Source of the DNA: a virus | Strand: one strand, 5' to 3' | Virus record (IMG/VR): IMGVR_UViG_3300009104_000135 | Span: 1 to 21,709 of that record | Length of the DNA stretch: 21,709 bases | Shown: positions 1-21,709 of the stretch, piece by piece | Layout: every line of letters begins with the position of its first letter | Position numbering within the stretch: position 1 is the first letter of the stretch | Program-made: the position numbers and the translations under genes | Notes under the pieces: model-generated | The model's database searches: none | What the model was told of the DNA's origin: nothing | The model's input: the letters and a program-made list of their open reading frames with translations, nothing else

Positions 1-287
1 GAATGTCAGCTAAATCTAATTTTGGATTTGGTAAAAACTTAGGAATGATACTTACTATTGCTGAATTAGTTCCTTCAGCAGAAACTCATATGGTTACTCC
101 TAAAATATGGCAGAAATATGTAAGAGTAACTGTTAAGGGTAAAGCTATCAAAAAAGAAGTAGCTAAAATAGCTCAAGGATTATACCCGAATGCAGAACTA
201 CATGGTAAACGTGGAGGTCTACTTGACGGTAGAGCCGATGCATTAATGATTGCTCACTATGGATTAAAACATATGGAGGAAGAATGA
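1..287 (+). CDS. RuvC-like Holliday junction resolvase, C-terminal part (5' truncated)
   Basis: About 94 residues are visible, and the frame is open to the window edge, so the ATG at 3-5 is probably internal and the true start lies upstream. The segment reads FGFGKNLGMI, then VTPKIWQKYV, then DGRADALMIAHYG. This matches the second half of phage/bacterial RuvC-type RNase H-fold resolvases: the glycine-rich helix, the V-x-P-x-x-W-K strand, and the C-terminal acidic motif whose Asp residues bind metal. The first catalytic Asp and the middle Glu would lie upstream and cannot be checked. In phages such enzymes resolve branched replication or recombination intermediates before packaging. The gene ends in a 4-nt ATGA overlap with the next gene, implying one transcript and coupled translation. 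The family call is fairly secure; substrate and exact role are inferred. Confidence 0.8.
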   Translation, partial: MSAKSNFGFGKNLGMILTIAELVPSAETHMVTPKIWQKYVRVTVKGKAIKKEVAKIAQGLYPNAELHGKRGGLLDGRADALMIAHYGLKHMEEE

Positions 288-718
288 AAATAGAAATAGA
301 TATAGATATTGAATCTATAGTAAGAGAAGCACTTAAAAAGAAACAATCAGAACAGATAGTTTCTGCTCCTATAGAAGCTCCTCCTACTAATGGTAAATCT
401 AAATGGGAATATGGACGTGTACCAGGTAAAAGACGCACTACTGAAGAACTAGCTCTACATGAAGCTGAAAAGAAATTAAAGCGTAGACTTACTCCTGAAG
501 AAAAAGGAGAAATCAAAGCTAAAGTACATATAGATGAAACAACAGAAAATAAAATTAAAGAAGCTGCTATTAAAAAAGATAGAATAGATAAAATGACTGC
601 TGAGGGTATTGCTGCAGCTACTAAAGAATTAATTAAAGAAAGTGAAGATATTATTCATGATGAAGAAACAATTCCTAAAACTGAAGATTTTAATCTTCCT
701 AAATCCTTATTTCAATGA
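284..718 (+). CDS. Hypothetical charged helical protein (144 aa)
   Basis: I do not recognise this protein. It is highly charged and Lys/Glu-rich, with no membrane segment or signal peptide. Residues about 1-20 form an acidic/amphipathic start, followed by a Pro-containing linker. A basic stretch (YGRVPGKRRTTEELALHEAE) runs into a predicted long helix around residues 45-125, and the tail is acidic. The start is well supported: a strong GGAGG-type Shine-Dalgarno lies just upstream of ATG 284, inside the end of the resolvase gene, and the ATG overlaps that gene's TGA. It lies between a recombination nuclease and two small genes, so a nucleic-acid-metabolism accessory role is possible, but nothing in the sequence shows it. 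Confidence 0.8.
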   Translation: MKIEIDIDIESIVREALKKKQSEQIVSAPIEAPPTNGKSKWEYGRVPGKRRTTEELALHEAEKKLKRRLTPEEKGEIKAKVHIDETTENKIKEAAIKKDRIDKMTAEGIAAATKELIKESEDIIHDEETIPKTEDFNLPKSLFQ

Positions 719-870
719 CAAACATTAAAAGTATATTTTATACTATCGGAACTATTGTCCTGATATTCACAGGAATACTCATATTACCTATAGGATTATT
801 TTTACTTGTTATAGCTATAGTATATGGTTTTTATAGATTGTTATTTACCGTGAGACAAATCCATGATTAA
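715..870 (+). CDS. Small hydrophobic membrane protein (51 aa)
   Basis: A short reading frame starting MTNIKSIFYTIG and ending RLLFTVRQIHD. Residues about 7-44 are almost entirely hydrophobic, broken by a Pro-Ile-Gly turn near residues 25-27. It could therefore be a two-helix membrane hairpin or one long segment, with a short basic C-terminus. Its ATG overlaps the preceding TGA (ATGA, 715-718) and its end overlaps the next ATG by 8 nt. There is no clear Shine-Dalgarno, so translation is probably coupled to the upstream gene. Small phage membrane proteins of this kind include holins and spanin-like or superinfection factors; none can be assigned here. The open frame, overlaps and coherent hydrophobic composition support a real gene. 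Confidence 0.65.
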   Translation: MTNIKSIFYTIGTIVLIFTGILILPIGLFLLVIAIVYGFYRLLFTVRQIHD

Positions 871-1027
871 TCTACAAGAAGCATTATTAATAGTAAGTAA
901 ATTATTAAATGATTACTTAAATGATCCTAATATTCACGTAACCAAAGAACAAAAACAAGCTGTACTATTAGTTAGAGATATAGCTGAGGGTAACGGTTGG
1001 AGTATTCAGAATGAATTTCGAGATTAG
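863..1027 (+). CDS. Hypothetical small protein (54 aa), last gene of the plus-strand arm
   Basis: The frame starts at ATG 863 (MINLQEALLIVSKLLNDYLN) and ends at TAG 1025-1027. It is predicted to be mostly helical, with two amphipathic helices around residues 3-20 and 28-44, and is soluble. I do not recognise a family. It overlaps the 51-aa gene by 8 nt and its stop codon overlaps the stop codon of the convergent giant gene (shared bases 1024-1027). There is no strong ribosome binding site of its own, so it is probably translationally coupled. Its reality rests on the close packing and the plausible amphipathic sequence. Confidence 0.6.
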   Translation: MINLQEALLIVSKLLNDYLNDPNIHVTKEQKQAVLLVRDIAEGNGWSIQNEFRD

Positions 1028-1036
1028 AAATTCTTT
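1010..1036 (+). terminator. Weak hairpin at the convergent gene junction (possible terminator)
   Basis: GAATTTC (1013-1019) and GAAATTC (1027-1033) form a perfect 7-bp stem around a 7-nt loop that contains both overlapping stop codons. AA/TT pairs could extend it past one mismatch. On the plus strand it is followed by TTT, then mixed sequence. The stem is A/T-rich and the U-tract is poor, so termination is uncertain. No better terminator separates the two converging transcription units. Confidence 0.25.
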
Positions 1037-4000
1037 AGATCTGATAATACTTCAAAGAGAGTTATATTATTTGCTTCATCAAATAGATCATCAGTCTGGA
1101 AGACATTCGGTAAGAAGTCTCCACCCATCCAAGCACTATTTACATTACCTAGAGTAGGCATACCAGTCAATTCCTGTATAACAGCAGAGATAGCAACAGA
1201 TGATGGATTAGTTGTTACTAATCTTTTAACAGCTCTTTGATTTCTTAACCAATAAGATAAGAAAGAAGTAGCACCAAGAGCGTCAATCATTTCTAATGGA
1301 GCAATAAGAGACTCATCAAATAGTACGAATGCTTCTAGTGCTTCATGTAATGCTTCTTTAAAGGATTTTCCTAAAACATTTTGACTATGTTCCATCATTA
1401 CATAGCGACCCATAAAATCTGTCATCTGTACTACTTGTTTAGAATACTGATATGGAATACTTTCTTTAGTCCAAAATAATGTATGTGCAACTGTTTGTAC
1501 ACTTCTAGGAATTTTATCTCCAATATTTTTAAGTTCACCTTTAAATAGTAAACGAGACATTCTATTCCAATATCCATCCATTTGAGCTGCATTTAAATCT
1601 TCAATAATTAATGAATCTACACCCGCCTCATTCATTTTATGAATCTTATTTCCTTCAATTCTAACTTTCAATCTCTTTACTTGCTGAGCTTCAGCACTGT
1701 TATCTGGTAATTTTTTAGTATCAATTTCATATTGAAGTTTTCTCATTTCCAAAGCGTCTTTACTATATCTCTTATATTCAGAAAGTCCTTCAATTAATTT
1801 ATTAAAAATATAAGACGGTGGAATTTTACGCATCATTAACTGCGTTACATTCGACATCATATTTAAAAAGATAACTTTTGGAATTGCTAATACTACTCGA
1901 TTCTTACCATATCCTACTGTTTCTTTAATTGCGTAATGACTTAAACCAGCAACTCTTTCAGCTAATGGATGTTTATTATTCTCAAAAACTTTATGTTGAG
2001 TAATATCTTTTTGTTTATATCCAAAGACCTTATCAATAATATCAATTCGAACCATGAACTCACCATTAACAGCAAACTCTTGTATATATTCCCGAACTGG
2101 TCGAGGCAATTTTCTGTAACGGTCATGATATGCAGATGCAGGATCTAATATATTAATAAACTGATTTGGGTAAGTTTTATATAGATTTTCCTGTTCATGC
2201 ACTAATAGATGAACTGTTTCTTTATCATTTATAATAGTATTTTTACGATCTACTAAATTAGAATGCATATGCGCAAACACATTCTGAAATTCTAAATCAG
2301 GCTTAATATAATTTTTTGTGTCTTCATGATTCATCATTATTCGATAATCAACTATCTTATTATTCTGATCAAATAACGGACGAAATTTAAATCGATCATC
2401 AAATCCTAATTTCTTAGCTAGTTTATTTTGATGTTGTTTAAATTGTTTAAGCTTAGCGCGAATTGCAAACATATCTGGTCTACCAGTATTACCAACCTGA
2501 TAAGCAGGATTTAAACTTAATATTTCTGTTAAAGTTGTTCCTTGATTTCGTGTATTAGTCGTAGACATAATCCCAGATACATCTTTTACTTCTGGTTTAT
2601 CTCTATTGATATACATAATATAATGTGTTTGATTAGTAGCTATTTTACTTAATTTAACAGACTCTGTATATCCTCTCTCTTCAAATTCTTCTTTTTGTTC
2701 AGGTGTACCAATCTGAATATCAGTTAAATTATCCATACGTTCGACAATATATCCTTTCATCATTTGAGTAGGATCACCATCGAATAAATCTTTTCGAGAT
2801 TTTGCTTTAAAATTAATATGTGCTTGCATGATGCTAATAATACCATTTTGTTGCGAATCAGCTTTAAATTCATTTTTAGCTAAGTCTTTAATTAAATGAG
2901 CATCTTGCGTATCAATATGACCTAATGCTGAAATGGTTGCATATGCATCTAATAAGCCTACTCGTTCTTCTGTAGGATTAGAAAGATAATCTAAAGCTAT
3001 TGAATATGCATTAGATCGAGAATCTGCTAATCGTTCAGTTAATCCTGTCATTTGCCAATATCCTAATTCATCAGCATATTGGATAGCAGCGCTATCTGCT
3101 GTTACACCTAATCTACGTAGTATATCTCTTTGTAATTGTTTTCTAGCTCGTATTGAATTCTTATCTTTACCAATTAATCCAATAATCTTTTTCATCCCAG
3201 CTGGTGAATTAAGATCTAAATTAGCAGTTATAAGTTGAGAGATATCACTACGTAACATTACATTAGTAAGTGCTTCCCTGGTTTCAACAGACATAGCATG
3301 TCGTTTAGTTGGATCTACTGATTTCCAAATACTTTTTATTCCATCTTGTTTATTTCCATTAAACCAATCTATTTGGAATGTTTCCGCTAGTTGACGTTGT
3401 TTTGATATATTACCTTTTGATTGAAGTAGTTGTTCAATCATTTTCTCATTAAGAACACCATCTCCAAATTCTTTAAGAAGTCCTCGCATTGAATAGTTCA
3501 TTTTTTCCATCCAATGATTACGAGCTTCAGTGACAGTATTATCTTCACCAAAATAAATATATGGTAGTGCAATTAACCCAGTAGCAATTTTTAATCCAGG
3601 ATCAGCGCTTTCAAAACTAGGTTTTCCTTCTTCAGTAGATTTAACTACTGCTCGCTCATATCTTTTAAAAGCTTTGTTAGCAAAATTTCTAATTATTTGA
3701 TCAGATGCATCTAAAGTTTTATATGTTTTACTTTGTATCTGTTCAGCTTTACTTTTATGTTTATTCTGAATTGCAACGAGTTGTTCAGTTATTGCAATAG
3801 CTTCTGACAACTGTAGATCGTTCTCAGGCCTATATACACGTTGCCCTAACACTTCTCTGACAGTATCAACAATATTTTTAATCATATCTAACATGCGTTC
3901 GTATAATCCGGTCCTTTGAGCAATAGAATTACTCTTCATGAAATTAGATAGAGACGCATTCGTATTAGCATATGCCATAAACTCATGTAATCGAACTTCT

Positions 4001-7000
4001 TCTTTTGCATGAAATGCATGCTCATATTGCTTTTTAGCCATGACAATTTCTGCAGCAGTAGCTAATCTTGTAGGACCTGTACCAGGAGGTAAGAACACTT
4101 TATAACCTTGTCCTTTACCGTATGTTAGTTCTAAAGTATTCTGAACATTTGAATACAATCTTTCAATTCTTTGCCTAACTAAGGGAGATTGATCAATAGC
4201 TATAGAAGTCATTGCATGTAATAACTCATGAGTATAGACTTCCTGAGGAGATTGACCGTTACGAATTCTTGGGGCATTTCGACTAGCTGAAACTGTTACT
4301 CTTTCTTTAGCTTCACTATATGTTCCTTGAGTAATTCCTTCAATTTGTTCATATGTTAATTGAATACCTGCTGTCGAATCAAAACCTTTACTTAATATAT
4401 CCAATACACGATTAAGACTATCTGTATGATTAGCTTCTTCTTCCGCGTTATTATAATAATTGCCTGATAACTCAACAAAATCATTAAATAATGTTTTAAC
4501 TTTATTACGAGTTATGTCACCCATATCTCTTGTGTCATAAGTCTTTCCTTTATCAGCCAATAAAGATTTTAATTCTTGTTTATCCTCTTCAGTAAAAAAG
4601 TCAAAAGAAGTCTGATGTTCTTCGTATGTTCTAGTAAATGTTTCTGCAATTTCTTTTTTAGCTACTGGATTACGTTCTCTATTATTAACTGATTCTTCAG
4701 CTGCAGCTAACATTGCCTCCCTCAATACTTGATCTTGAGATTGACCTTCTGGTTTTTGCATAAACATTTGTAGAGATTCATTAAGTCCACCATTCTCAGA
4801 AGCTAATTCTTCAAGTTTACGTCTTGCCTCTAAAACCTCATCTTTTACACGTTCAAAATTATCTAATAAATCTGGAAGAGTAATCTTAGCTTCATCTCTA
4901 TTTTTATTATCGAAGAACTCATCTTCAATATAGTCCTCAACTTCCTTTTCAAAATCCTCACCCATTTGGGCGGTAATACCTAATACCCTCTGAACTTGCT
5001 CATAGGTTTGTTCAATAACACTATGAGTTCGATTATAGTGGAGGAACAATTGCCCGTAAGCTGCACTAATTGTAGACAGCTGTTCTGGGCTAGCCATAAA
5101 TGCATCATGTAACATTAATACATTTAAATCCCCAACCCAACGTTTACCATCAACATTAATGTTTGAATCACCATTCATGGTTTGAGTTAGCAGAACAGAG
5201 TCCATATTAATAATCTGGCGTATTAATGCAGACACTCCAGGCTCAATAAATCTTAATTGTTGTGGGAAGGTATTATGAGTTTGAGAAATATTAGAATCAT
5301 ACTTACCATTTTTATCCTGTTTAGCTGTTCTATATTCAATTCTTTCGTCAGCAAGTTTATTTCTACCTTGAAGACTTGAAACTAAATCTAATTGTATTTC
5401 TTCAGGAATATCTTTTTTAAAATTTATTATTTTAATTAATCTAGTTTTAGCATTTTCAGTTAAGTCATCTACATTCTCTTCAACAAAATTAATGAGTTCT
5501 TTACTACTCATTTTATCAACGTTTTCAGGTACCCCTATTTTATCGTTTAGTACTGAAACATTTTCAGTTTTAGATAAATCAATAAATCCTTCAGTATTAC
5601 CATTTTCATCAATGGTAGATAAAGGACCTTTATATTGAGGGAATAGTTTGATTAAATTACTTTTTGTATCCTTAATCATTTTGGTTAGTTCATGTTTAGT
5701 CAATGAACTACGCCCAACTTCTTCTAACTTCTCTGCATATGCTCGTTTAAAATGAACCATAAACGTGCCGTGCAATACTCCACCCATCTGAACAACAGTA
5801 TCTCTAGCTTCCTTAGTTGGTTCCAACATAGCATTAAGACCATGATCAAACCTAGGAGCTATAGTAGTACTAATATTAGCGTGGAGGTAATTATCATTTA
5901 GATATTTATTTAAAGATGTTCCATTTCTAATAGCTTCTGCGAATTCCTGTTTTGTTACTACTTTTTTAGTACCTTGATTATCTTGATTAAAAGCTCCTAA
6001 TTTATCTAATGCATTAATGAATGCCCCAATTTTATACCGATAGTCATCAGCTCGATCTGCTTCTGCTTCCAGATCTTCACCTACTGATGTAAGTCTATAC
6101 TCTTCAAAGAAAGCACGAGTTTCATCAGCTGCAGGTTTGGAATCATTATACGTTTGTTGCATAATTCCAATTTGGGAATAGATTTCACTAATGATATCTT
6201 TAGTGACATCTTTAGAAATACGATCTATACCGCCACCGTACATATGGATAATAAACGGATATTTAACTACGCTGCGTAGGGCTCCATCATCTTGTTTAAA
6301 ATCAGGGAAGAGAACATCAAGTGCTCCATTTAACCGATTGTAATCTGATAAGAATTCAGCATTAGCTTTTGCTTGTTTTCTATCTTGTTCTTTTTCTTTG
6401 TCATCAAGTAATTTTCTATATGCAGCTTCTTGTGCTGAAGTTGCTCTTGTAACTCCTGGACCAGACTTATGTGGTTTTACAGGAGGTAGCCCGTGTAATT
6501 TTCTTACTTTATTTAATTCTTTAAATGCCGCTGTACGTTCAGGTCCTGGCAGCATGTTATCTATGAATGAAGCGTCTATATCTCTATCTATATTGATCTC
6601 ATTTTCAAATTCTTTATCTTCTGCTGCAACTTCTGCATCAGTCATTAATTTATTAGTCTTAGCATTTCTACGTGTCCATTCTGGAGCTTTTTTATTTTCT
6701 CTATTGTAATACCATCTAGCAATTGCTTTAGATTTACGTCTTTTCTCATAAACCTCATCACGACGTATTAAAGCTTGAAGCATATCTTTTTCTTTTGAAT
6801 CTACATATACTTTGTATTTATTCTTACGTTTTCTATAAGTCGAGAGAGGGTTGTAATCATCCTTCCAATTGTTATCAACAATGTAATTGTAAGGAATACT
6901 ATTTTCTTTATTCATCTCCATAGTTCCATCACCCATTGCTTCTTGTACATACTCTGCAAGAGTTTGGTAGGTATCTGGAGCTTCAGTATCATGTTCAGTA

Positions 7001-10000
7001 TCATCACCAAAATATGTAGCTATTTTAGCCAACATTTCTGGCATATTCTTCCACATTGGGAATTGCATAACATTCATTGCAAAACCATTGGAGATACCAT
7101 CAATCTCCATAACAATATCTGATTCAAATGATTTATTAATTGTTTTTCTAAAGCCAAGCTTAGCTGATTTACTAGGAGATACTTTCATGTACTGAGCTAA
7201 TCCAGCAATACCCTGGAGTAGGGACATGTTACCACCTCCAGTATCTTCACTAGATTTAACAATAGATAAGGCATCAGCAAATTCTTTAGCTGCTGCTTTC
7301 TTTGCTGCTAACGCATTCTTATGCTTAGTCTTATTAGCTTTTTTAAGTTTAGTACTTTCTACAAGATTTCTTGCTTTAGTTAATTTTTGATAAGCATGAA
7401 CTGCAGCTAATACATTACTGTTATTAACAAGATCATTAAAATAAGTTTTTGAATCACCATAAGTTTGTTTATCAATATCACTTCCAAAATTCTGAGCAAC
7501 AGCTAACTCAAACTTCCATAGATTTTTTTCGTTATAAGTTTTTGGTTCCCAAGATTTTAATAGGAAACGATCAACTTTACTTCCTTGAGGATTGATCTTG
7601 CCTTCTTGCATAATACGATGATGATTCTGCAGGCTATAAGTAAAATAAAATTTCTCTAGTTCATTACGATCATTAGCTTCTACAAGTCTTTTTAAGCTAG
7701 CTAATTTATCTCTATTAGAAGCTGCTTTAGACTCCATATCATATTCATGCCATCTACCTTTTTTAATAGGTTCACCGTTTTTATCAACTTTACGTTCACC
7801 ATCTTTATCTAATACATATACGTATTCGCCATTAGCATCTTTTTCATATAATTCTTCAATACCCATTACTTGTTCTAAAACATCACTATGATCTTCAAAT
7901 AGATCACTAACTATATCCATTGGTTGAGATTTACTCCATTCAACCTTATGTAGTTTTTTTAGAAGTCTTTGTACTTCTTGAGGTACATCTCCAAAAGTAC
8001 CGGGTACATCAGTTCTAATATCTCGTGGATTTTGTAGTGGACCAGCATTAGATTGAATATCTAAATTAAGTTTTGTAGTTAAATCTTTTACTGCAGCTAA
8101 TCCTTCTTCAGAAGGAGGCTTATCTTCATTAACCTTTAGTTGTCTATATCCTAATCCATCTTTATCAGCTTTAGATCCTGGAGGGTTATTGTTATAGACT
8201 CGTCCCTCTTCGTGAGCTTCTTCAAAAGCCCATTTATGTACATCTTTAATAAAGTAAGCTTCACTATCATTGCCTTGAGCTGTTTCAATAGCTGCCATTC
8301 CAAGAGCAGGAATTAAATGTTCATAATATATGTCTATTCCTTCTTGTGTTAATTCGCCAGAAGCCTTAGCGGGAGATAAGTGTAGCATCTGAGATATGTC
8401 ATATCCTATCTGTCTAGCTACATCATTATAGCTGTACCCTAATTTTTGCAATTCAGCTTTTTCATTTGAAGATAATTTTTGAGTATTATTATAGAGAAAA
8501 GCTTCCATTTTATAATCACTATCTCCAAATACGTTATTATCTGAAGTTCTTTGTCTCCATGTCATTGCACCAATCATCATGGAGAATATAACTTGATTAG
8601 GTAATATTCCCTGCTGATTATCAGGATTTTTGGTATCTTCACGATACAATAATGACAATGGTTGTCTAATAGCGTAATTAGTTGTATCTTGTAAATCTGC
8701 AAGTTTAACAGTAAAAGCATTACCACCTTCTACTCCAGGTCCTTGAACTTTAGCTTTATCTCCTTTAATAGAAATAACTTTTAACTGAGCACCACCATAT
8801 TTTACAGGTTCTTCAGCATTTTCATCCCTATCTAATAATACAACTGTATTACCTTTTACAATTGGATGATAAAGAGTTTCTCTAAATCGTGCCGCAAATT
8901 TAGTATATCTATTAGATAAAATTTTAGCTGATTTGGAATCTAGTCCTAGATTTATTAATGCTTTAGTTAACGCTTTAGGAGTTTCAATATCAGCATCAGA
9001 AAGAGTATGAATCCCTCCTTCTTTAACTCGTTTACCTATATTAACTAAATCAGTAAATTTTTTCCCAACTAGGCCAAGAGCTTTATCTAAATTATCTTTG
9101 CTTACTGCTTTAATAGCTGTTTGATATACCAGGGTAGCAGACTCTATAAAATTCTTTCCTGCGAACGAGAATTCGAGTTGTTCTCCTGGTTTACCTTCTT
9201 CATCTTTAGTAGTCTCTCGCACATCAGGAGCAGGTTCATCAGGAGATTTAGTAGACTCTTCAGGTGCTTGATCTTCTGTCCTAGTGTCATCTCCTGCTGG
9301 TTCATCAGTTTTGGATTCTGCGATACGTGATTTAAGACCTGCAATTGTTGTTTTGAGTTCGTCAATTTTGTCTCGAAGAATTTTTTTATTTTCATCATCT
9401 TCCCCTAATTCATTAAATGCATCAACAGTAGTTTTTAATTCTGTTTCAGCTTCTTTTAATTGATTTTCTAAAGTAGAAGCTTCGTCTACTGCTTCATCAA
9501 TTTTAATATCTTCTCGTTGCTCATCTGTTACTTCTTCAACAACGCGAGACATACCTCCTCTTAGCTTAACTAATGTGTCATATACGTTTTGCTTAGCTTT
9601 AATCTTAATTTCTTGATTAGCAGCTGCTTGGGCCATAGAAGTCTTCTTATAACCCTGCACTGTTCCCATAATTAATTTGCCGTATTTAACTTCTCCCTCT
9701 AAATTATTAATAAGACCATCAGACTTATTAATAGTGAAATTTTTAAACTTATGAGTTTTATCTGTAATTAGAGTAACAAACTGCCCATTGTTTTTACGAG
9801 ATTCGAATGACTGTCCTTCTTTATATTCAGTACCATTTGCTTTAGCTTGAGCTTTTGCATCTGCTTCAGTTAATGGCATAGAAACTGTTTTGTAGTTCAT
9901 TTTGCGTACACCTCTCGGTGACTTTTCATCAATTGAACCTACAACAACAGCACCCATACCAGAAGCTAAGTTAGGGATCATACCTTTAGCTCGTTTAAAC

Positions 10001-13000
10001 TCAGCTAATTTACTACTTAAATTAGTCGCATGAGTAATCATTTTCGAAGTAAGTGCTCTAATATGCCTGTCACGAAGTACAGGATCAGTTAGATTCTTAT
10101 ACGAATTAATGATTTCTTCATGGTATTTAGCTAAACCTTTCCATTTTTTAGTATCACCTTCTAAAATTTCTTCATGAACATCAGCCATTGTTTTTTCGGC
10201 TTGTTCTTCTTTCTCAGCTCTTTTAGCTTTTTCAATCTTTCTATCAACCTGATCTTGCCAATATACTGTATCTTCTGGAAGAGCCTGTGGATCTGCTTTT
10301 GATTGTTCTAATTTTTTCTTTGTTTCATCAATAGATAATTTATCATGCTCTTCTTCGCTATCCTCAATAGAGCCAAATGTTTTACCCCCTTTACCATCAT
10401 CTTTAGGAGCATATTTTTTAATAAATTCATCAAATTTAGCTTGAACTAATTTTTGAGCTTTATCGCTCATATTACGCTGAGTTAGTGCTTGAAATTTTTC
10501 TAATATAGTACGAGGAGTTTCATCAGGGCGAACTCGAGGAATTAACTGGTCTACTGGAATAGTTTCAGTTAGACCTTTTATACGTACATGTACTTTTCCA
10601 TCTTTTAATAATCCAACAATTTCTTCAATTACATATCCTTGTGTATCTTGATTTTCTTGATTTTCATCATTTTTTAAATCAACTATATCACCAGGTCCGT
10701 AATCTGGGTGTTCTTCAATAGGGATATAATTAGGGTTATCTGCTTTATCAGACATTATTATTTCGTCTAAAATAACAGTAACTTCTGCATCAGTAATATC
10801 TTTTCCAGCATCTTTATTAATTTGAACATTAACTATATTTTCTTTCTTACCTTCAAGTTGAGTTGTTACTTTTTCTAATTGAAGTTTTTGATATTCTTTT
10901 TCAGCTTTTAATAAACTTGGTTTAGCTGTTTCTTCTAATATATTTCCAATTGTATTTATTTTTTCTTGTACTTTTTCCGTAGCTATAATTTTTTGAATAT
11001 CAGAAGATTTTTCATCAGCTTCAATTGTTTTAAGATCTTTTTCATATCCTTCAATTTCTTTATTTAATGCTTCCCCATATTGTGTATCTTTTACTTTAAT
11101 CGTAGCAGTATCTGATCGTCCTGCAAAAGTTTCTCTTATACTATTTTCTTTAGTAACAACTTGAGGTAAACGACTTTGTAATGTATCTAATTCTGAACCT
11201 GAAGTATTTAAATTTTCTTCTAAATCTGTTTTAATAGCATTTATCACATCGTCTACAGTGCCATTAGTTTGATTAGCTAAATCTTTATGTTTCTCAAATA
11301 ATTTTTTAATTTTAGGATTTTTTGTTTCTACTTTTAATTCACCACTTTTTGCATCAGTAGTAACATTAGGTAATTCAACTATAGCTGATTCAATTTCTAC
11401 AACTTCATTAGTTAGTTCTTCTAAACGCGCAAGATCTTTAGGATTAGTATCCTTTTCAAATTTTTCAATTCTTTTAATTTGTTCTTCTATTGCAGTTTTT
11501 TTCTTTTTTAATCCATCTTTTAATTGTTGTTCATTTGATGGACTAAGAATTTTTTTAGTAACAGCTGTTGTTACATTTGCTGCAGCAAACGTTGGTGCTA
11601 ATGATAGAGATCCAAGTCCTTCCATTAATGCGCCCTTATATGTTGCTCTCCAATCAACTGTTTCTTTGGGTAGTTGTCCCTCAATAACTACTTCTCCACC
11701 ACCTTGAAGAGCTTCACCAGCCATACCACTTCCTATATCAACAACTTTACCTCCAATTTTACCTAAAATTTTAATATCAGGAGGAGTAGTTTCTCCTATC
11801 TTTTTAGCTATTTTTCGAATCCATTGCACATGTCCGCCAGGAGGACCTTTACCAACTACTTTATCTAAGTAACCCAAACTTATTTTTTGAGTAACTACTT
11901 TTAATGCCATCCAATTTTCAATAGAATTTTGAACTTCTGGTGTGTAATTTTCTTCCCCATGCTTTTCAATCCATGCTGCTTTAGCACGTTGAGATTCATC
12001 TCTAATAAAAGTAGCTAATGTGGCACTTTGTGTAAATAATCCTCCAGAAACTAAAGCTAAAGAATATGCAGCACTGCCTAATCCTTCTTTAGCATAAGCT
12101 GCTTTATGACTTTTTAACATTTCCCAAACAGCAGCAAGTTCACCATCTTTATCAGCAATTAAATCATAAATTGATTGACTTGCTTGAAATCCAGCATCAT
12201 TTGTTGGAAAGAGATCTCTCCATTTATCCGCATATTCTGTAATAAGTTTTCTTTGTTCTTTATTTTCATCAGCTTCTTTTTGTAATTTAGAAAGTACTCC
12301 AAATTTTGGATCGTTTTTAAATTGTTCTTGAGCAGTAGTTAAAGTTTTACTAGTAAGAATGGATCTAAACATTTTAACATCTGCGGGTGTAAGATCAGTT
12401 TCTGGCTTATTAAGTAATTTTTGACTTTGTTTTAATCTATTATAATTATTAACTTTTCCTTGTAGACTTTGTTCTCCAACAACAACACCTGCAACATATG
12501 AATCAAGACCACCAATACTTCCTATTAAATAGTTCTTAACATCACCAATAGACCATTCTTCATAAGCACCTATAGCTTGCTTTGCTGAATCGCGTTGAAA
12601 ACGAGTAGCATAATAAGTTGCTTCTTTTTCAGTTAAATTACTTACTATTCGCCCATTAAGATAAGCAGTCCACGTACCATCTTCATGTCCTACAACATTA
12701 GATCCTTTATGAACAACAATCGGAGATTTATTCTCCATACTCGGTGCTTCAACTAATTCAAGAATATTGCGTTTTAAAGTTGGATCAACATCTAAATTCA
12801 TGATTGCATTACGTTGTGCACTCTGCTCAGTAGGAACTACTAATGCTTCATAATCCACTCCAGATGGCGCTGGAAGTAAATCAGGATCTGTTTTACGTCC
12901 TGAGACTATAGCTAAAGTATCTCCTGCTTTGTCCATACCTTCTAATGCTTCATCTGGAGCTTTAGATGCACCTTTAACTAATGCATCTTTTGCATCAACC

Positions 13001-14772
13001 CATTTTTCTTTATCAGATAGTATTTCTTTAGATTTACTTATTCCTTTTACAAAATTATTTTTTGCATCAACTAATTTATTACCAAGTTCTTTAGCTATTT
13101 TAATATCAGCTAAAACATCTTTTGTTATTACTGTAGCGGTGCCTTTAACTTTAGCAACTCCTGTATCCAGAAGTTCATCTGCTTTATTAATTATGTCATT
13201 ACCAAATGCTTCTAATTGATCAAATACTTTAGCAGTATCAGCAGTAGAAGGAAGATCAGGAAGTTGATTTGTAATTGATTCAATAGCATTTTTGGCACCT
13301 TTTAATGCTAAATTTGGAGATTGTGAAACACCACTAACAAAAGCATCTTTTGCTTTAACTAATGTATCGCCAAGTTTTGTAATTTCTTGACTAACTTTTT
13401 CTACACCTGCTTCTAATTGATTAAGTACTACTGATTCTTTTTTAAGAGGAGGCTTATGTTCTTTAAGATGAGGTAATAATGGATCTGTAGCAATTTTAGC
13501 TAATTCACTATCTGGTGAAATATCATCCGCAATAGTTTCAGGCGGGAATACAGTTATAGATTCATCTTTCGGTGTAGGTTCATCTACTGCTACCGGTGTA
13601 GGAATATTGGCTGTTACACTATCAAGACTAGCATCTAAATTTTGCGGACCTTGATCTATAGGACCCGTATCTAATTCATTAGTAGATACAGGAGCTTCTA
13701 CTGGAGGTGTAGCAGACTCTTGGCTAACGCCCGAGTCTGCTACTTGTTCAATAGGTTCTTCAAGAATTAGTTCCTGTCCAGGTTGTATCTCTGTTTCGTG
13801 ACCTACAGTTTGTGGGTTGAGACGTTGTAGTTCTTCTAATGATATACCTTGTCGTTGAGCAATCTCAGATAATGTATCACCTGCCTGGATTACATATGGT
13901 TGTCCAGGTTCAGTCTCTTCATCAGCTGGGGCATGAGCACCTATAATACCTTGTGCTTGCTGATTATACTCTAATTTAGCTTGTTCATAGGTAGTCCCAG
14001 CAGGAAGATTTAAACTAGATAATTGATGAGCTTCATCTACAATTGTTGGATTATTTAAATAGTAATTTGTAACATCTGTATTACTACCATTTTCATGGCT
14101 AATCATAGCTTTAATTATTGTAGGTAAATCTTTTTCAGTTACAATTTCTTTTCCATCTACACTATTTTTTAAATGATCATAATATGCTTGAGTATTATTT
14201 TCAGATGGAGGTGCATATTTATTAACCATTTCCAATAAATTTCCATCAAATTCTTTCATCTTTGCTCGCATATCTACAAACATAGCTCTAACACCCATTT
14301 GAGGGGTATCAAAATCTACAAAAGGTGTAGGTCTATCATTTCCATAAGTTTCTCCAGTTTCACCTGCATATCCTTGTCCTTTTTGTATATTACCTGGGTT
14401 ATTATGAATATTAGTTGGTACGGATGGTTCATTAAACGTAACATTTCCAAATTCACCCGTAGATAAAGCATCATTTTGGTTTAAGGGAACTTCAGGGTTT
14501 GTTTCAACAACTGTACCTGTTACTGGATTAAAACCAGGGGGAGGCAAAGGTCTATTAACACCTAAAACTTGTTTAGCTTGAAGTAGTGCTTTAGTAGTAG
14601 CAACATTTTCTTGTGATTTACTTTTAGCAAAGGCTAATCGAGCTTTAGCCATTGCAAGTTCAGATGTTTTTGTAGGAGGGGGAGGAGCTACTGCAGCTCC
14701 ATTCATAGGTTGATCAGGAGCTGTGGAGTTTGTTAGTTGTTGTATAATTTCTTCATTGGTTGGTTGAGCCAT
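1024..14772 (-). CDS. Giant virion protein (4582 aa): lysozyme-like + LysM + N4/T7-type virion RNA polymerase + HExxH peptidase
   Basis: One uninterrupted 4582-residue frame, the last gene of the late operon. Domains in order: lysozyme-like about 121-235; LysM 293-337; Pro/Thr/Glu-rich linker about 340-450; short helical repeats 467-605; hydrophobic Gly/Ala-rich helices about 896-1070; coiled coil about 1080-1310; small SH3-like beta segment about 1355-1415; coiled coil about 1764-1818 plus acidic linker; single-subunit RNA polymerase about 1855-3260; HELLH at 3515-3519; C-terminal helical module with TDFMGRY at 4451-4457. I found no cysteine. The inferred role is an internal virion protein, ejected with the DNA, that penetrates the cell wall and then transcribes early genes like N4 gp50 (about 3500 aa). 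The 35-nt gap after the 643-aa gene lacks a clear Shine-Dalgarno, unlike the other late genes. The RNA polymerase identity is strong; the peptidase and lysozyme activities are inferred from motifs. Confidence 0.92.
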   Translation of the reverse strand: MAQPTNEEIIQQLTNSTAPDQPMNGAAVAPPPPTKTSELAMAKARLAFAKSKSQENVATTKALLQAKQVLGVNRPLPPPGFNPVTGTVVETNPEVPLNQNDALSTGEFGNVTFNEPSVPTNIHNNPGNIQKGQGYAGETGETYGNDRPTPFVDFDTPQMGVRAMFVDMRAKMKEFDGNLLEMVNKYAPPSENNTQAYYDHLKNSVDGKEIVTEKDLPTIIKAMISHENGSNTDVTNYYLNNPTIVDEAHQLSSLNLPAGTTYEQAKLEYNQQAQGIIGAHAPADEETEPGQPYVIQAGDTLSEIAQRQGISLEELQRLNPQTVGHETEIQPGQELILEEPIEQVADSGVSQESATPPVEAPVSTNELDTGPIDQGPQNLDASLDSVTANIPTPVAVDEPTPKDESITVFPPETIADDISPDSELAKIATDPLLPHLKEHKPPLKKESVVLNQLEAGVEKVSQEITKLGDTLVKAKDAFVSGVSQSPNLALKGAKNAIESITNQLPDLPSTADTAKVFDQLEAFGNDIINKADELLDTGVAKVKGTATVITKDVLADIKIAKELGNKLVDAKNNFVKGISKSKEILSDKEKWVDAKDALVKGASKAPDEALEGMDKAGDTLAIVSGRKTDPDLLPAPSGVDYEALVVPTEQSAQRNAIMNLDVDPTLKRNILELVEAPSMENKSPIVVHKGSNVVGHEDGTWTAYLNGRIVSNLTEKEATYYATRFQRDSAKQAIGAYEEWSIGDVKNYLIGSIGGLDSYVAGVVVGEQSLQGKVNNYNRLKQSQKLLNKPETDLTPADVKMFRSILTSKTLTTAQEQFKNDPKFGVLSKLQKEADENKEQRKLITEYADKWRDLFPTNDAGFQASQSIYDLIADKDGELAAVWEMLKSHKAAYAKEGLGSAAYSLALVSGGLFTQSATLATFIRDESQRAKAAWIEKHGEENYTPEVQNSIENWMALKVVTQKISLGYLDKVVGKGPPGGHVQWIRKIAKKIGETTPPDIKILGKIGGKVVDIGSGMAGEALQGGGEVVIEGQLPKETVDWRATYKGALMEGLGSLSLAPTFAAANVTTAVTKKILSPSNEQQLKDGLKKKKTAIEEQIKRIEKFEKDTNPKDLARLEELTNEVVEIESAIVELPNVTTDAKSGELKVETKNPKIKKLFEKHKDLANQTNGTVDDVINAIKTDLEENLNTSGSELDTLQSRLPQVVTKENSIRETFAGRSDTATIKVKDTQYGEALNKEIEGYEKDLKTIEADEKSSDIQKIIATEKVQEKINTIGNILEETAKPSLLKAEKEYQKLQLEKVTTQLEGKKENIVNVQINKDAGKDITDAEVTVILDEIIMSDKADNPNYIPIEEHPDYGPGDIVDLKNDENQENQDTQGYVIEEIVGLLKDGKVHVRIKGLTETIPVDQLIPRVRPDETPRTILEKFQALTQRNMSDKAQKLVQAKFDEFIKKYAPKDDGKGGKTFGSIEDSEEEHDKLSIDETKKKLEQSKADPQALPEDTVYWQDQVDRKIEKAKRAEKEEQAEKTMADVHEEILEGDTKKWKGLAKYHEEIINSYKNLTDPVLRDRHIRALTSKMITHATNLSSKLAEFKRAKGMIPNLASGMGAVVVGSIDEKSPRGVRKMNYKTVSMPLTEADAKAQAKANGTEYKEGQSFESRKNNGQFVTLITDKTHKFKNFTINKSDGLINNLEGEVKYGKLIMGTVQGYKKTSMAQAAANQEIKIKAKQNVYDTLVKLRGGMSRVVEEVTDEQREDIKIDEAVDEASTLENQLKEAETELKTTVDAFNELGEDDENKKILRDKIDELKTTIAGLKSRIAESKTDEPAGDDTRTEDQAPEESTKSPDEPAPDVRETTKDEEGKPGEQLEFSFAGKNFIESATLVYQTAIKAVSKDNLDKALGLVGKKFTDLVNIGKRVKEGGIHTLSDADIETPKALTKALINLGLDSKSAKILSNRYTKFAARFRETLYHPIVKGNTVVLLDRDENAEEPVKYGGAQLKVISIKGDKAKVQGPGVEGGNAFTVKLADLQDTTNYAIRQPLSLLYREDTKNPDNQQGILPNQVIFSMMIGAMTWRQRTSDNNVFGDSDYKMEAFLYNNTQKLSSNEKAELQKLGYSYNDVARQIGYDISQMLHLSPAKASGELTQEGIDIYYEHLIPALGMAAIETAQGNDSEAYFIKDVHKWAFEEAHEEGRVYNNNPPGSKADKDGLGYRQLKVNEDKPPSEEGLAAVKDLTTKLNLDIQSNAGPLQNPRDIRTDVPGTFGDVPQEVQRLLKKLHKVEWSKSQPMDIVSDLFEDHSDVLEQVMGIEELYEKDANGEYVYVLDKDGERKVDKNGEPIKKGRWHEYDMESKAASNRDKLASLKRLVEANDRNELEKFYFTYSLQNHHRIMQEGKINPQGSKVDRFLLKSWEPKTYNEKNLWKFELAVAQNFGSDIDKQTYGDSKTYFNDLVNNSNVLAAVHAYQKLTKARNLVESTKLKKANKTKHKNALAAKKAAAKEFADALSIVKSSEDTGGGNMSLLQGIAGLAQYMKVSPSKSAKLGFRKTINKSFESDIVMEIDGISNGFAMNVMQFPMWKNMPEMLAKIATYFGDDTEHDTEAPDTYQTLAEYVQEAMGDGTMEMNKENSIPYNYIVDNNWKDDYNPLSTYRKRKNKYKVYVDSKEKDMLQALIRRDEVYEKRRKSKAIARWYYNRENKKAPEWTRRNAKTNKLMTDAEVAAEDKEFENEINIDRDIDASFIDNMLPGPERTAAFKELNKVRKLHGLPPVKPHKSGPGVTRATSAQEAAYRKLLDDKEKEQDRKQAKANAEFLSDYNRLNGALDVLFPDFKQDDGALRSVVKYPFIIHMYGGGIDRISKDVTKDIISEIYSQIGIMQQTYNDSKPAADETRAFFEEYRLTSVGEDLEAEADRADDYRYKIGAFINALDKLGAFNQDNQGTKKVVTKQEFAEAIRNGTSLNKYLNDNYLHANISTTIAPRFDHGLNAMLEPTKEARDTVVQMGGVLHGTFMVHFKRAYAEKLEEVGRSSLTKHELTKMIKDTKSNLIKLFPQYKGPLSTIDENGNTEGFIDLSKTENVSVLNDKIGVPENVDKMSSKELINFVEENVDDLTENAKTRLIKIINFKKDIPEEIQLDLVSSLQGRNKLADERIEYRTAKQDKNGKYDSNISQTHNTFPQQLRFIEPGVSALIRQIINMDSVLLTQTMNGDSNINVDGKRWVGDLNVLMLHDAFMASPEQLSTISAAYGQLFLHYNRTHSVIEQTYEQVQRVLGITAQMGEDFEKEVEDYIEDEFFDNKNRDEAKITLPDLLDNFERVKDEVLEARRKLEELASENGGLNESLQMFMQKPEGQSQDQVLREAMLAAAEESVNNRERNPVAKKEIAETFTRTYEEHQTSFDFFTEEDKQELKSLLADKGKTYDTRDMGDITRNKVKTLFNDFVELSGNYYNNAEEEANHTDSLNRVLDILSKGFDSTAGIQLTYEQIEGITQGTYSEAKERVTVSASRNAPRIRNGQSPQEVYTHELLHAMTSIAIDQSPLVRQRIERLYSNVQNTLELTYGKGQGYKVFLPPGTGPTRLATAAEIVMAKKQYEHAFHAKEEVRLHEFMAYANTNASLSNFMKSNSIAQRTGLYERMLDMIKNIVDTVREVLGQRVYRPENDLQLSEAIAITEQLVAIQNKHKSKAEQIQSKTYKTLDASDQIIRNFANKAFKRYERAVVKSTEEGKPSFESADPGLKIATGLIALPYIYFGEDNTVTEARNHWMEKMNYSMRGLLKEFGDGVLNEKMIEQLLQSKGNISKQRQLAETFQIDWFNGNKQDGIKSIWKSVDPTKRHAMSVETREALTNVMLRSDISQLITANLDLNSPAGMKKIIGLIGKDKNSIRARKQLQRDILRRLGVTADSAAIQYADELGYWQMTGLTERLADSRSNAYSIALDYLSNPTEERVGLLDAYATISALGHIDTQDAHLIKDLAKNEFKADSQQNGIISIMQAHINFKAKSRKDLFDGDPTQMMKGYIVERMDNLTDIQIGTPEQKEEFEERGYTESVKLSKIATNQTHYIMYINRDKPEVKDVSGIMSTTNTRNQGTTLTEILSLNPAYQVGNTGRPDMFAIRAKLKQFKQHQNKLAKKLGFDDRFKFRPLFDQNNKIVDYRIMMNHEDTKNYIKPDLEFQNVFAHMHSNLVDRKNTIINDKETVHLLVHEQENLYKTYPNQFINILDPASAYHDRYRKLPRPVREYIQEFAVNGEFMVRIDIIDKVFGYKQKDITQHKVFENNKHPLAERVAGLSHYAIKETVGYGKNRVVLAIPKVIFLNMMSNVTQLMMRKIPPSYIFNKLIEGLSEYKRYSKDALEMRKLQYEIDTKKLPDNSAEAQQVKRLKVRIEGNKIHKMNEAGVDSLIIEDLNAAQMDGYWNRMSRLLFKGELKNIGDKIPRSVQTVAHTLFWTKESIPYQYSKQVVQMTDFMGRYVMMEHSQNVLGKSFKEALHEALEAFVLFDESLIAPLEMIDALGATSFLSYWLRNQRAVKRLVTTNPSSVAISAVIQELTGMPTLGNVNSAWMGGDFLPNVFQTDDLFDEANNITLFEVLSDLKNF
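3913..4335 (-). other. Domain: HExxH zinc-metallopeptidase-like (residues about 3480-3620)
   Basis: YTHELLHAMT contains HELLH (His3515, Glu3516, His3519). It is preceded by a TVSASRNAPRIRN-type stretch and followed 78 residues after the first His by RLHEFMAY, where Glu3597 could be the third zinc ligand (gluzincin-like). Similar zincin domains are known in large phage and plasmid polyvalent proteins. Possible roles are self-processing of the giant chain or cleavage of a host protein. Activity is not established. Confidence 0.65.
4993..9210 (-). other. Domain: single-subunit (T7/N4-type) virion RNA polymerase (residues about 1855-3260)
   Basis: Motifs in order: Arg2386 in QNHHR, followed 8 residues later by NPQG at 2394-2397, the same spacing as T7 RNAP R425 and its NPQG. 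Motif A is EIDGISNGF with catalytic Asp2558. Motif B is RSVVKYPFIIHMYGG with Arg2833, Lys2837 and Tyr2845, exactly the +4/+8 spacing of T7 R627/K631/Y639. Motif C is LMLHDAF with catalytic Asp3223. Motif A-B and B-C distances (275 and 390 residues) are larger than in T7 (90 and 185), so there are insertions, including a strongly basic stretch around 2647-2710. The first motif lacks the usual Thr/Asp and Gly of T/DxxGR. No multisubunit-type DFDID motif is present. Confidence 0.9.
12958..13374 (-). repeat. Imperfect protein repeats in the giant protein (residues about 467-605)
   Basis: Three related segments occur at residues 467-485 (LGDTLVKAKDAFVSGVSQS), 563-581 (LGNKLVDAKNNFVKGISKS) and 587-605 (SDKEKWVDAKDALVKGASKA). 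They share V-x-A-K-x-x-h-V-x-G-x-S. The second and third are offset by 24 residues, the first and second by 96. They are amphipathic helices, likely a spacer between the cell-wall module and the rest of the protein. DNA identity between copies is only partial. Confidence 0.6.
13762..13896 (-). other. Domain: LysM peptidoglycan-binding (giant protein residues 293-337)
   Basis: This is a canonical 45-residue LysM: the opening strand and turn YVIQAGDTLSEIAQRQGIS, the L-E-E-L-Q-R-L-N-P helix, and the closing IQPGQELIL strand. LysM binds N-acetylglucosamine-containing glycans. It directly follows the lysozyme-like domain, consistent with targeting that domain to the cell wall. Confidence 0.93.
14068..14412 (-). 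other. Domain: lysozyme/lytic-transglycosylase-like (giant protein residues about 121-235)
   Basis: Residues 123-129 read HNNPGNI, followed by F-x-D-x-D-T-P and G-V-R-A-M around 151-163, then YAPPSENNTQAY at 186-197 and ISHENGS near 224-230. This order (NNPGNI, a G-x-R-A helix, APP-x-E-N-x-T-x-Y) is the pattern of the peptidoglycan-hydrolase-like domain found in many phage structural proteins (PRD1 P5-annotated type). It would locally open the cell wall during genome entry. The catalytic residue is not proven; Glu191 or Glu227 are candidates. Confidence 0.7.
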
Positions 14773-14807
14773 GGGGTATCTTTACTTATATGAGAATTCA
14801 TAGAAAA

Positions 14808-20214: not shown

Positions 20215-20736
20215 TTAGGTCGGTTCAGCGTTTGTGATTTGTGTATTTATATTATCGGTCCCAGTTGTATTTAAAGCATTTACACCAGTAGACGCAACAC
20301 CTGCTGTTGAAATATTAACCGCCCATGCATCAAGTAATGTTTTAAGATATTTTTGATCTGCATTCCATTTAAAGCCTTTAGCTTGTTCAGTAGACAAGTT
20401 ATTTGCTCTCCCTGCCACGGAAGTAGTTGTAGGAGCTACTTTAGTAGATTGTTCAGTTTGAGCAAATTCAGTAACTTCTTTTTGAAATAATAAGGCTTCT
20501 TCTGCATTACCTTTTTGCATGCCTATTGTATAAGCTACAGCTTGTTGAACAGCTGCTTGCATAGCTGTTAAATATACTGTTGCATAATCACTACCAGTAA
20601 TACGGCCTAAATTAAATTGGGCAGCCATATGTGCATTCACAGTTTCCATTAAATCATCGAATACACCAGTACCTGTTACTACATTACTAGCATCGGTAGC
20701 TACACCGGCAGTTAGATCAGCAATAGTAATAGCCAT
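20215..20736 (-). CDS. Structural protein near the capsid gene, N4 gp54 position (173 aa)
   Basis: Ala/Thr-rich protein. Residues about 25-95 are a helical section (ITGSDYATVYLTAMQAAVQQ, then QKEVTEFAQTEQSTK), and a low-complexity Thr/Asn/Gly C-terminus follows. The Y-A-x-V-Y-L-x-x-x-Q-A-A-x-Q-Q-A helix followed by a Gln/Glu/Thr-rich helix is a pattern I associate with small structural proteins encoded close to the capsid gene in podoviruses with N4-gp56 capsids, but I cannot name a function. The ATG overlaps the upstream stop by one base (TAATG) and has its own CAGGAGATA ribosome binding site, so it is coupled to the 206-aa gene. N4 gp54 is a tail-associated structural protein; correspondence is by position only. 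Confidence 0.72.
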   Translation of the reverse strand: MAITIADLTAGVATDASNVVTGTGVFDDLMETVNAHMAAQFNLGRITGSDYATVYLTAMQAAVQQAVAYTIGMQKGNAEEALLFQKEVTEFAQTEQSTKVAPTTTSVAGRANNLSTEQAKGFKWNADQKYLKTLLDAWAVNISTAGVASTGVNALNTTGTDNINTQITNAEPT

Positions 20737-21356
20737 TAGTTATCTCCTGTATGAAATGCAGGATTTGCTGCTTGAGCTGCAGCCAATCTTTCCAACTCTT
20801 CTTTAGTTAGTGGATCTAAAATTCGTACATTAAATTTCTTAGTAATATATGGCTCTAATACTTTTTCACCATTAGGCGTAGTGACTGTTTTAAATTTCTG
20901 CATTTCAGCATGTTCAATTTGATTAAGAATAATTTGTGGAACATGCCATCCTTCTTCATTGTTAAAAGGAACATATTTTTTAATCATCTTTCCGCCATTA
21001 AGTCCTGAAGCACCTACAGTAAATATAAGACCAGGATAACTACTCATCAATGGGTCATTAGGCGTAACAACAATACGCACAAGTTTCATAGCCTCTTTCT
21101 CACCCGTTTTTGTTAATGCTTTTGCAGCAGCTGCTTTAGCGGCTTCACTAGCATCTGGTAATCCACCTTCATAAGGTCTATCATCTACAGCTACCGGAAT
21201 ATCTTGCACCATTGCTTCTGGACTAGTCCGTGCAGTATGCAATAATTCTGCTAATTTAGATGATCCTGTCTTATGATGAAATTTAATTCCATATTCTTTT
21301 AATTCCTGTTTAATTTCTTCATCAGTGAGTTCACTAATAGGTGTTTCAACTTGCAT
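20736..21356 (-). CDS. Capsid-adjacent structural protein with N-terminal SAP/HeH-like helix pair, N4 gp55 position (206 aa)
   Basis: Residues about 8-42 (SELTDEEIKQELKEYGIKFH, then KTGSSKLAELLH) form the helix-extension-helix pattern of SAP/HeH/LEM-like motifs seen in phage structural proteins. An Ala/Lys-rich linker follows, around residues 65-90. The second part (about 92-190) is beta-rich, with KKYVPFNNEEGWHVPQIILN and a closing DPLTKEELERLAAAQ helix. I associate this combination with proteins encoded beside N4-gp56-type major capsid genes. The function is unknown: minor capsid, decoration or scaffold-like roles are all possible. The start at 21356 is preferred because AAGGAG lies 7 nt upstream. 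A closer ATG at 21360-21358 opens a frame of only four codons. Confidence 0.8.
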   Translation of the reverse strand: MQVETPISELTDEEIKQELKEYGIKFHHKTGSSKLAELLHTARTSPEAMVQDIPVAVDDRPYEGGLPDASEAAKAAAAKALTKTGEKEAMKLVRIVVTPNDPLMSSYPGLIFTVGASGLNGGKMIKKYVPFNNEEGWHVPQIILNQIEHAEMQKFKTVTTPNGEKVLEPYITKKFNVRILDPLTKEELERLAAAQAANPAFHTGDN

Positions 21357-21421: not shown

Positions 21422-21709
21422 TTATACAGCTGCCAAAGCAGTCCAAATAATTCCTAGACGTTCTGGACGAAGCGCCATAAATCCATAATACCATTTGATA
21501 GAGTAGAACCCTACTTCACCATATGGATCATCCAAAGAAGCTATTTCTTTACCAGGCTTCTTATGGTTGATGCTGAATTTAACGCTTTTTCCATCTGTCT
21601 GGAAACCGATAGTAGTGAAAGCACCATCACCAACAACCAACATTGGATAGATGTCTGCACCATTATCTCCGGTACCTGCAGTATCAGCGGCAGATGCACC
21701 ACCGTTTTC
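21422..21709 (-). CDS. N4-gp56-family major capsid protein, C-terminal 95 residues (5' end outside window)
   Basis: The frame is open through the right edge, so the ATG at 21643 is internal; upstream in-frame residues include [20 protein letters not shown]. This G-A-D-x-Y-P-x-L-V-x-G-x-x-A-F/Y-x-T block is followed by [18 protein letters not shown] and then [19 protein letters not shown]. That is the C-terminal signature of the HK97-fold major capsid proteins of the phage N4 gp56 family. It forms the icosahedral shell. It is the first visible gene of the late operon and is followed by the GC-rich hairpin, consistent with capsid being made in excess over the downstream proteins. Family assignment is confident, although only the C-terminal part is visible. 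Confidence 0.88.

Follow-up and report, generated by a model that had tools for sequence, protein, structure and literature searches.

The closest described relatives of the protein analysed here are the virion RNA polymerases (vRNAPs) of Escherichia phage N4 and other Schitoviridae, which range from 2842 to 3820 aa in reference genomes (PMC10654107). In phages N4 and DEV, gp52- and gp51-type proteins form a channel, and the vRNAP follows and is anchored through its N-terminal domain (PMC12633501, PMC10925440). According to the 2025 structure of the N4 vRNAP, wall hydrolysis is required but, with the N4 ejection proteins apparently lacking it, presumably comes from a source acting in trans (PMC12633501). 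A zincin in the vRNAP was described in 2017 (PMC5512222) and again in the 2025 N4 structure (PMC12633501). A second point of comparison is T7 gp16 and the Kayfunavirus internal virion protein D, which are likewise encoded by the last and largest gene of an ejection operon and carry an N-terminal lysozyme-superfamily domain, whereas T7 gp16 contains no polymerase and T7 entry uses the host RNAP. The endolysin of Hafnia phage Enc34 (7Q47, PHA02564) is a proven muralytic enzyme; its lysozyme core is circularly permuted, and Glu131 has been proposed as the catalytic residue (PMC8943055). An N4-like RNAP, a metallopeptidase, and a lysozyme/transglycosylase have already been reported in one protein, DR90_1081 of a Moraxella prophage (WP_038519592; Iyer et al. 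2017, PMC5512222); compared by its description only, it differs from the present protein in being a prophage protein with a PBECR1 RNase domain, for which no LysM or cassette swapping is described (PMC5512222). The present protein joins unrelated catalytic domains (hydrolase, RNAP) and a zincin in one ORF, as polyvalent proteins do (Iyer 2017), with its delivery presumed. An earlier paper also remarked that vRNAPs are distantly similar to gp16-type transglycosylases (PMC9569702).

The window, i.e., the whole stretch of 21,709 nucleotides analysed here, encodes a 4582-aa protein in a single frame of 13,749 nt that starts with ATG and runs from 14772 to 1024 (Table 1). The preliminary description gave the coordinates and length of this frame exactly but no strand, and the gene actually lies on the minus strand; all of the motifs that it named were found (NNPGN at 124, APPSEN at 187, LysM at 293-337, and HELLH at 3515). 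An open frame of 13.7 kb at 33% GC with the domain matches given below is not attainable by chance, and the frame and its matches are confirmed as a genuine observation. Contig L001 equals window positions 1-7028 at 99.9% and represents the same virus in a separate assembly, while L095 equals positions 13768-15927 at 100% and spans the gp51-vRNAP junction; both contigs derive from one other sample. A 73,993-bp contig, L003, encodes a collinear homologue of 4506 aa with 84-88% identity over most of its length.

The protein matches the virion RNA polymerase family of PHROG (phrog_2206, 7.7e-141), and in Pfam the N4_RNAP_helical domain (PF21894) scored over the cut-off. The gene order is that of N4, with RuvC on the opposite strand followed by gp50, gp51, gp52, gp53, gp54, gp55, and the capsid gene gp56. 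Further genes of the same virus are carried by L001 (RuvC, SSB, Sak4, and an N4-type primase), and the L003 contig encodes an N4 RNAPII and a portal protein 45% identical to that of N4. The phrog_2206 match, the N4 gene order, and the L003 portal and RNAPII thus point to a phage of the Schitoviridae type, and on homology the protein is the vRNAP (gp50) of an uncultured N4-like phage. It shares with N4 gp50 and other Schitoviridae vRNAPs the RNAP core, the catalytic residues, the HExxH-bearing C1 domain, the C-terminal domain, and the gp50-gp56 order, whereas N4 gp50 is 3500 aa long, the additional length here being mostly N-terminal, and has neither the N-terminal hydrolase nor LysM. The best isolate matches to the vRNAP have approximately 22% identity and lie in the C-terminal domain. 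No isolate in the phage collection searched falls inside the clade of the window, and megablast of the whole window against phage records gave no match. A host scan of genomes found one alphaproteobacterial MAG contig (L187) with the hydrolase-less type, which is a weak basis for naming a host. Two other features of the relative were observed. The N4 RNAPII subunits gp15 and gp16 are merged on the L003 contig into a single-chain 580-aa polymerase with T7-type motifs (L183:703-2445), and a Radical SAM/SPASM-like ORF lies amid several ORFs that look by inspection like 2OG-Fe(II) oxygenases (L185:7779-9119 and neighbours, L003 genome).

Table 1. Features of the window and the evidence for each; aa numbering refers to the vRNAP.
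Feature	Position	Strand	Evidence
RuvC-like Holliday junction resolvase, 3' part (full length in L001)	3..287	+	phrog_1770
vRNAP (gp50 homologue), 4582 aa	1024..14772	-	phrog_2206 7.7e-141; L003 collinear homologue
C-terminal domain, aa 3505-4573, best phrog_2206 stretch	1054..4260	-	PHROG match
E3597, putative third zinc ligand	3982..3984	-	kept in 18/19
Zincin HELLH, aa 3515-3519	4216..4230	-	HExxH 19/19
RNA polymerase core, aa 2301-3300 (modelled)	4873..7872	-	AlphaFold and PDB matches
D3223, motif C catalytic Asp (HDAF)	5104..5106	-	alignment
N4_RNAP_helical domain PF21894, aa 2798-2892	6097..6381	-	Pfam
Motif B R2833-K2837-Y2845-G	6238..6276	-	alignment
Insertion aa 2662-2791, between motifs A and B, absent from L003	6400..6789	-	comparison with L003
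D2558, motif A catalytic Asp (N4 D1556), ExDGxxxG	7099..7101	-	alignment
R2386, equivalent of N4 R1421 (T/DxxGR motif)	7615..7617	-	alignment
LysM peptidoglycan-binding domain, aa 293-337	13762..13896	-	PF01476 9.4e-11
Enc34/PHA02564-type peptidoglycan hydrolase domain, aa 116-262; candidate catalytic E227; aromatics Y186, Y197	13987..14427	-	9vvp, PHROG, AlphaFold to 7q47
N-terminal head, aa 1-73, common to L003 until cassette boundary	14554..14772	-	70% aa identity
gp51 homologue by position (periplasmic-tunnel ejection protein), 643 aa	14808..16739	-	N4 synteny
gp52 homologue by position (outer-membrane-channel ejection protein), 211 aa	16749..17384	-	synteny
gp53 homologue, 921 aa	17431..20196	-	phrog_2220 6.5e-51
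gp54-like virion structural protein	20215..20736	-	phrog_2050
gp55 homologue	20736..21356	-	phrog_2130
Major capsid protein (gp56) C-terminus, truncated by window end	21422..21709	-	phrog_1357 3e-28

The polymerase core contains the T7-family residues R2386, D2558, R2833-x3-K2837-x7-Y2845-G with T7-like spacing, and D3223. In an alignment of 24 environmental vRNAPs, R2386, D2558, K2837, Y2845, and D3223 are invariant, and the first four align with N4 R1421, D1556, K1667, and Y1675, which we take to be R424, D559, K670, and Y678 of the mini-vRNAP. The AlphaFold model of aa 2301-3300 is of moderate confidence (mean pLDDT 76.5, pTM 0.68), and its first seven matches in the PDB are all N4 mini-vRNAP or gp50 (E 3e-9 to 1.4e-7), with T7 RNAP among the next; the TM to N4 is approximately 0.4. 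In addition, EIDGISNG at D2558 fits ExDGxxxG, the literature motif for recognising vRNAPs (PMC10654107). The preliminary description, which would have given up its reading had no polymerase fold been predicted near Asp2558 and Asp3223, was therefore right about both the N4-type vRNAP identity and the T7/N4-type catalytic motifs with their local spacing, as the family match, synteny, fold, and catalytic residues agree. Between motifs A and B, the window protein has a charged insertion of approximately 130 residues (aa 2662-2791) that is missing in the 88%-identical L003 protein.

The zincin-like C1 and C2 domains of the vRNAP family are present at the C-terminus (HELLH 3515, E3597, and the phrog_2206 match). 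HExxH occurs in all 19 vRNAPs compared (the window protein and 18 others), and the candidate third zinc ligand at the E3597 position is kept in 18 of them. HELLH 3515 is thus present as the preliminary description had proposed for a zinc-peptidase module, but it is the C1 domain standard to the family and was rejected as a novelty, being found in all 18 comparison vRNAPs and already published. In one relative, the vRNAP frame extends over at least 5953 aa, is still open where the locus ends, and contains two HExxH motifs (L027:2873-20731), and in some schitovirus-like contigs (L041, L045/L046, and L047/L048) the vRNAP is apparently split into two adjacent ORFs, one of approximately 1100-1700 aa upstream and one of 2400-2750 aa with the RNAP and zincin. 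With a complete zincin active site, and with metallopeptidase processing proposed by Iyer et al. (PMC5512222), the protein could be a polyprotein from which the C-terminal zincin or a prohead protease cuts the hydrolase loose, either prior to packaging or once it has been delivered, to give two separate working proteins. We consider this unlikely, as the N4 vRNAP is reportedly packaged unprocessed, its same zincin notwithstanding (PMC5512222), and no cleavage site was identified in the window protein.

The N-terminus of the vRNAP carries a wall module consisting of a hydrolase domain and a downstream LysM at aa 293-337 (PF01476, 9.4e-11). Residues 123-237 match Gp29 (PDB 9vvp) at 3.7e-7 and also match T7-like internal virion proteins, endolysins, and the PHROG endolysin families phrog_873/342. 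The AlphaFold model of the N-terminal domain, with pLDDT mostly >90, retrieves the catalytic domain of the Enc34 endolysin (7q47; prob 1.00, E 4e-6, target TM 0.65-0.69), and aa 116-262 are accordingly modelled as an Enc34/PHA02564-type domain with a permuted lysozyme-like, all-helical fold. E227 aligns with Enc34 Glu131 and is invariant in 48 homologues. Enc34 Tyr95 corresponds to Y197, while Enc34 Trp79 is replaced by a Tyr (Y186), which also occupies this position in the homologue of Hafnia phage yong1. The fold, sequence motifs, and catalytic Glu are those of the Enc34 endolysin; however, the latter is a separate enzyme that acts in lysis and has a transmembrane tail, whereas here the domain heads a virion polymerase. 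The lysozyme-like and LysM module of the preliminary description is borne out by these matches. An NNPGN domain and LysM also occur together in an ORF of an apparently unrelated phage (L103:1007-2410), a possible source of the cassette.

The module may alternatively be a wall-binding anchor, in which the hydrolase fold and LysM tether the ejectosome to peptidoglycan and catalysis is unneeded. This would suit the binding function of LysM, the Tyr186 found in place of Enc34 Trp79, and the two outgroup vRNAPs without any module, but the invariance of E227 in the 48 homologues, the retention of Y197, and the absence of LysM from several clade members make such a role improbable. Moreover, different modules of the lysozyme superfamily take its place in the relatives, as would fit selection for cutting and not for a single binder.

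The protein that carries the wall enzyme differs among schitoviruses. Acinetobacter phage Presley gp80 and Dinoroseobacter phage DS-1410Ws-06 gp58 resemble the present case in having an SLT within the Schitoviridae ejection operon, although on the gp51-type protein adjoining the vRNAP rather than on the vRNAP. None of the 10 clade gp51s scanned has a hydrolase above the cut-off, and the 643-aa gp51 homologue of the window has no hydrolase domain by Pfam/PHROG. In the outgroup relatives L035 and L039 and in most schitoviruses, no hydrolase was detected on either the vRNAP or gp51, which suggests that the module is not universally required. By Pfam, which alone would miss Enc34-type domains in the non-clade scans, SLT occurs in only two of 51 non-clade ORFs upstream of vRNAP, some of which are not true gp51s. 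A general rule that the hydrolase is always on the vRNAP or gp51 was rejected on these counts (2/51 upstream ORFs and 0/54 vRNAP N-termini outside the clade). Given the SLT on gp51 in two schitoviruses, the hydrolase-free clade gp51s, and a separate endolysin candidate in L003, the wall module is best read as an entry enzyme with a varying carrier. A role in late lysis or virion release instead of entry might be expected from the late-gene position and from a domain family best known from endolysins (PMC8943055), but appears very improbable because an M15-like endolysin candidate is encoded separately in L003 (by inspection), an injected 4.5-kaa protein is an odd carrier for a lysis enzyme, and the same domain heads T7-like internal virion proteins.

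The reading as an entry enzyme agrees with the T7 gp16-like wall step that had been proposed for the vRNAP, as the same NNPGN domain is found at the start of Kayfunavirus gp16-type proteins and the vRNAP is the third ejection gene in the same operon position. When the N-terminal 1824 aa of the vRNAP were searched by tblastn, gp16-type matches were found only at the hydrolase and adjacent residues, and the rest showed no gp16 homology; the vRNAP is therefore gp16-like at the wall and not a gp16. An "all-in-one" entry machine, as the protein had been called, does not fit the operon, in which separate genes for the gp51 and gp52 channel proteins adjoin the vRNAP.

The comparison with 80 related loci gathered from IMG/VR indicates that the wall module is exchanged. 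Relatives on other contigs have matching frames of 4.2-5.9 kaa; the complete clade vRNAPs have 4255-4994 aa, and one frame has at least 5953 aa. The excess over N4 (4582 vs 3500 aa) stands but is not singular, and length was rejected as the main novelty since the whole clade is long and L036 (4511 aa) and L039 (4208 aa) are long without a hydrolase. Among the 16 distinct clade members having an N-terminus, a hydrolase was recognised in 13: an Enc34-type domain in two (window and L002), a phiKZ gp144-type SLT in eight (L003, L004, L005, L016, L022, L025, L026, and L028), and a T7 gp16-type SLT in three (L018, L023, and L027). The other three (L020, L021, and L024) have a domain without a database match. 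The window, L003, and L004 are the only ones with LysM. A tree built from the downstream part of the N-terminal region shows at least seven changes of module type. The window and L003 are sisters and 90% identical downstream, yet at the DNA level the match breaks off exactly at codon 73, and their slots hold unrelated sequences; L002 and L005 are 87.5% identical downstream and have different modules. Conversely, L005 and L016 are only 59% identical downstream, yet their hydrolases are identical at 158/158 residues within an 880-bp block at 98.5%. The breakpoint at codon 73 and the identical hydrolase in divergent lineages are signatures of recombination, and as judged from these alignments the slot for the hydrolase is a cassette that recombines and is swapped between close relatives. 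L017 repeats the L016 arrangement; some residual chance is left to chimeric assembly of a single contig as the cause of the swap signal. That the long frame itself is an assembly artefact fusing separate genes, a concern of the preliminary description prompted here by the window being a single metagenomic contig and by the vRNAP occupying two ORFs at some schitovirus-like loci, has a negligible probability and is in practice already refuted, because collinear long ORFs occur on independent contigs (L003, L016, L018, L020, L021, and L023-L028), both gene ends are backed by L001 and L095, and L001, L095, and L003 agree with the window.

Outside the clade, no Pfam hydrolase was found in 54 vRNAP N-termini, and the hydrolase profiles built in this analysis matched no vRNAP. 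The hydrolase cassette on the vRNAP thus appears to be limited to one uncultured clade (13/16 vs 0/54 other vRNAPs). In L020, L021, and L024, vRNAP aa ~215-530 hold a conserved domain (AEG...P[FY]G...ERGLI.ANP) in the place of the hydrolase, possibly a further wall hydrolase; it had no match in Pfam, PHROGs, NCBIfam, a PDB profile search, or phage tblastn. The swapped cassette, which the preliminary description missed, is the most interesting part of this system. The fusion of RNAP and wall module, which had been thought under-described, was reported together with a zincin in 2017 (PMC5512222), whereas the swapped slot is new in the papers searched. Within those papers, the new elements are a schitovirus clade whose vRNAP bears a hydrolase at its extreme N-terminus, the LysM that goes with it, and the swapping of this hydrolase among close relatives.

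It is very likely that the protein is an N4-like virion RNA polymerase, the last and largest of three ejection proteins, with an exchangeable N-terminal peptidoglycan hydrolase (Enc34-type glycosidase and LysM anchor). Sequence and fold establish which domains are present, that their active-site residues are intact, how the genes are ordered, and that the cassette is swapped; by analogy with N4, DEV, and T7, a possible course of entry can be added. The vRNAP would be packaged in the virion, from which gp52 and gp51 would exit first to form the outer-membrane and periplasmic channel, and the vRNAP would pass through this channel next. LysM would keep the N-terminal hydrolase of the vRNAP on the glycan, where the hydrolase would cut a local hole in the wall, as is thought for T7 gp16. 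The remainder of the N-terminal region may then seat in the inner membrane, and the RNAP and C-terminal domains would refold inside the cell and transcribe the early genes. The built-in hydrolase probably explains how the polymerase passes through the wall in these phages.

On a broader reading, which we regard as evenly balanced between true and false, the vRNAP N-terminus would be a dedicated warhead slot in which hydrolases are recombined to match the wall chemistry of the host. The entry hydrolase would have moved from one ejection protein to another (it sits on gp51 in some schitoviruses and on the vRNAP here), and its absence from N4 would be a lineage-specific loss or replacement. A whole clade with the wall enzyme built into the polymerase, in several interchangeable versions, makes the passage of an N4-type polymerase of >380 kDa through peptidoglycan testable on short N-terminal segments. 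It also suggests that ejection proteins, like tail fibres, bear a fast-evolving module.
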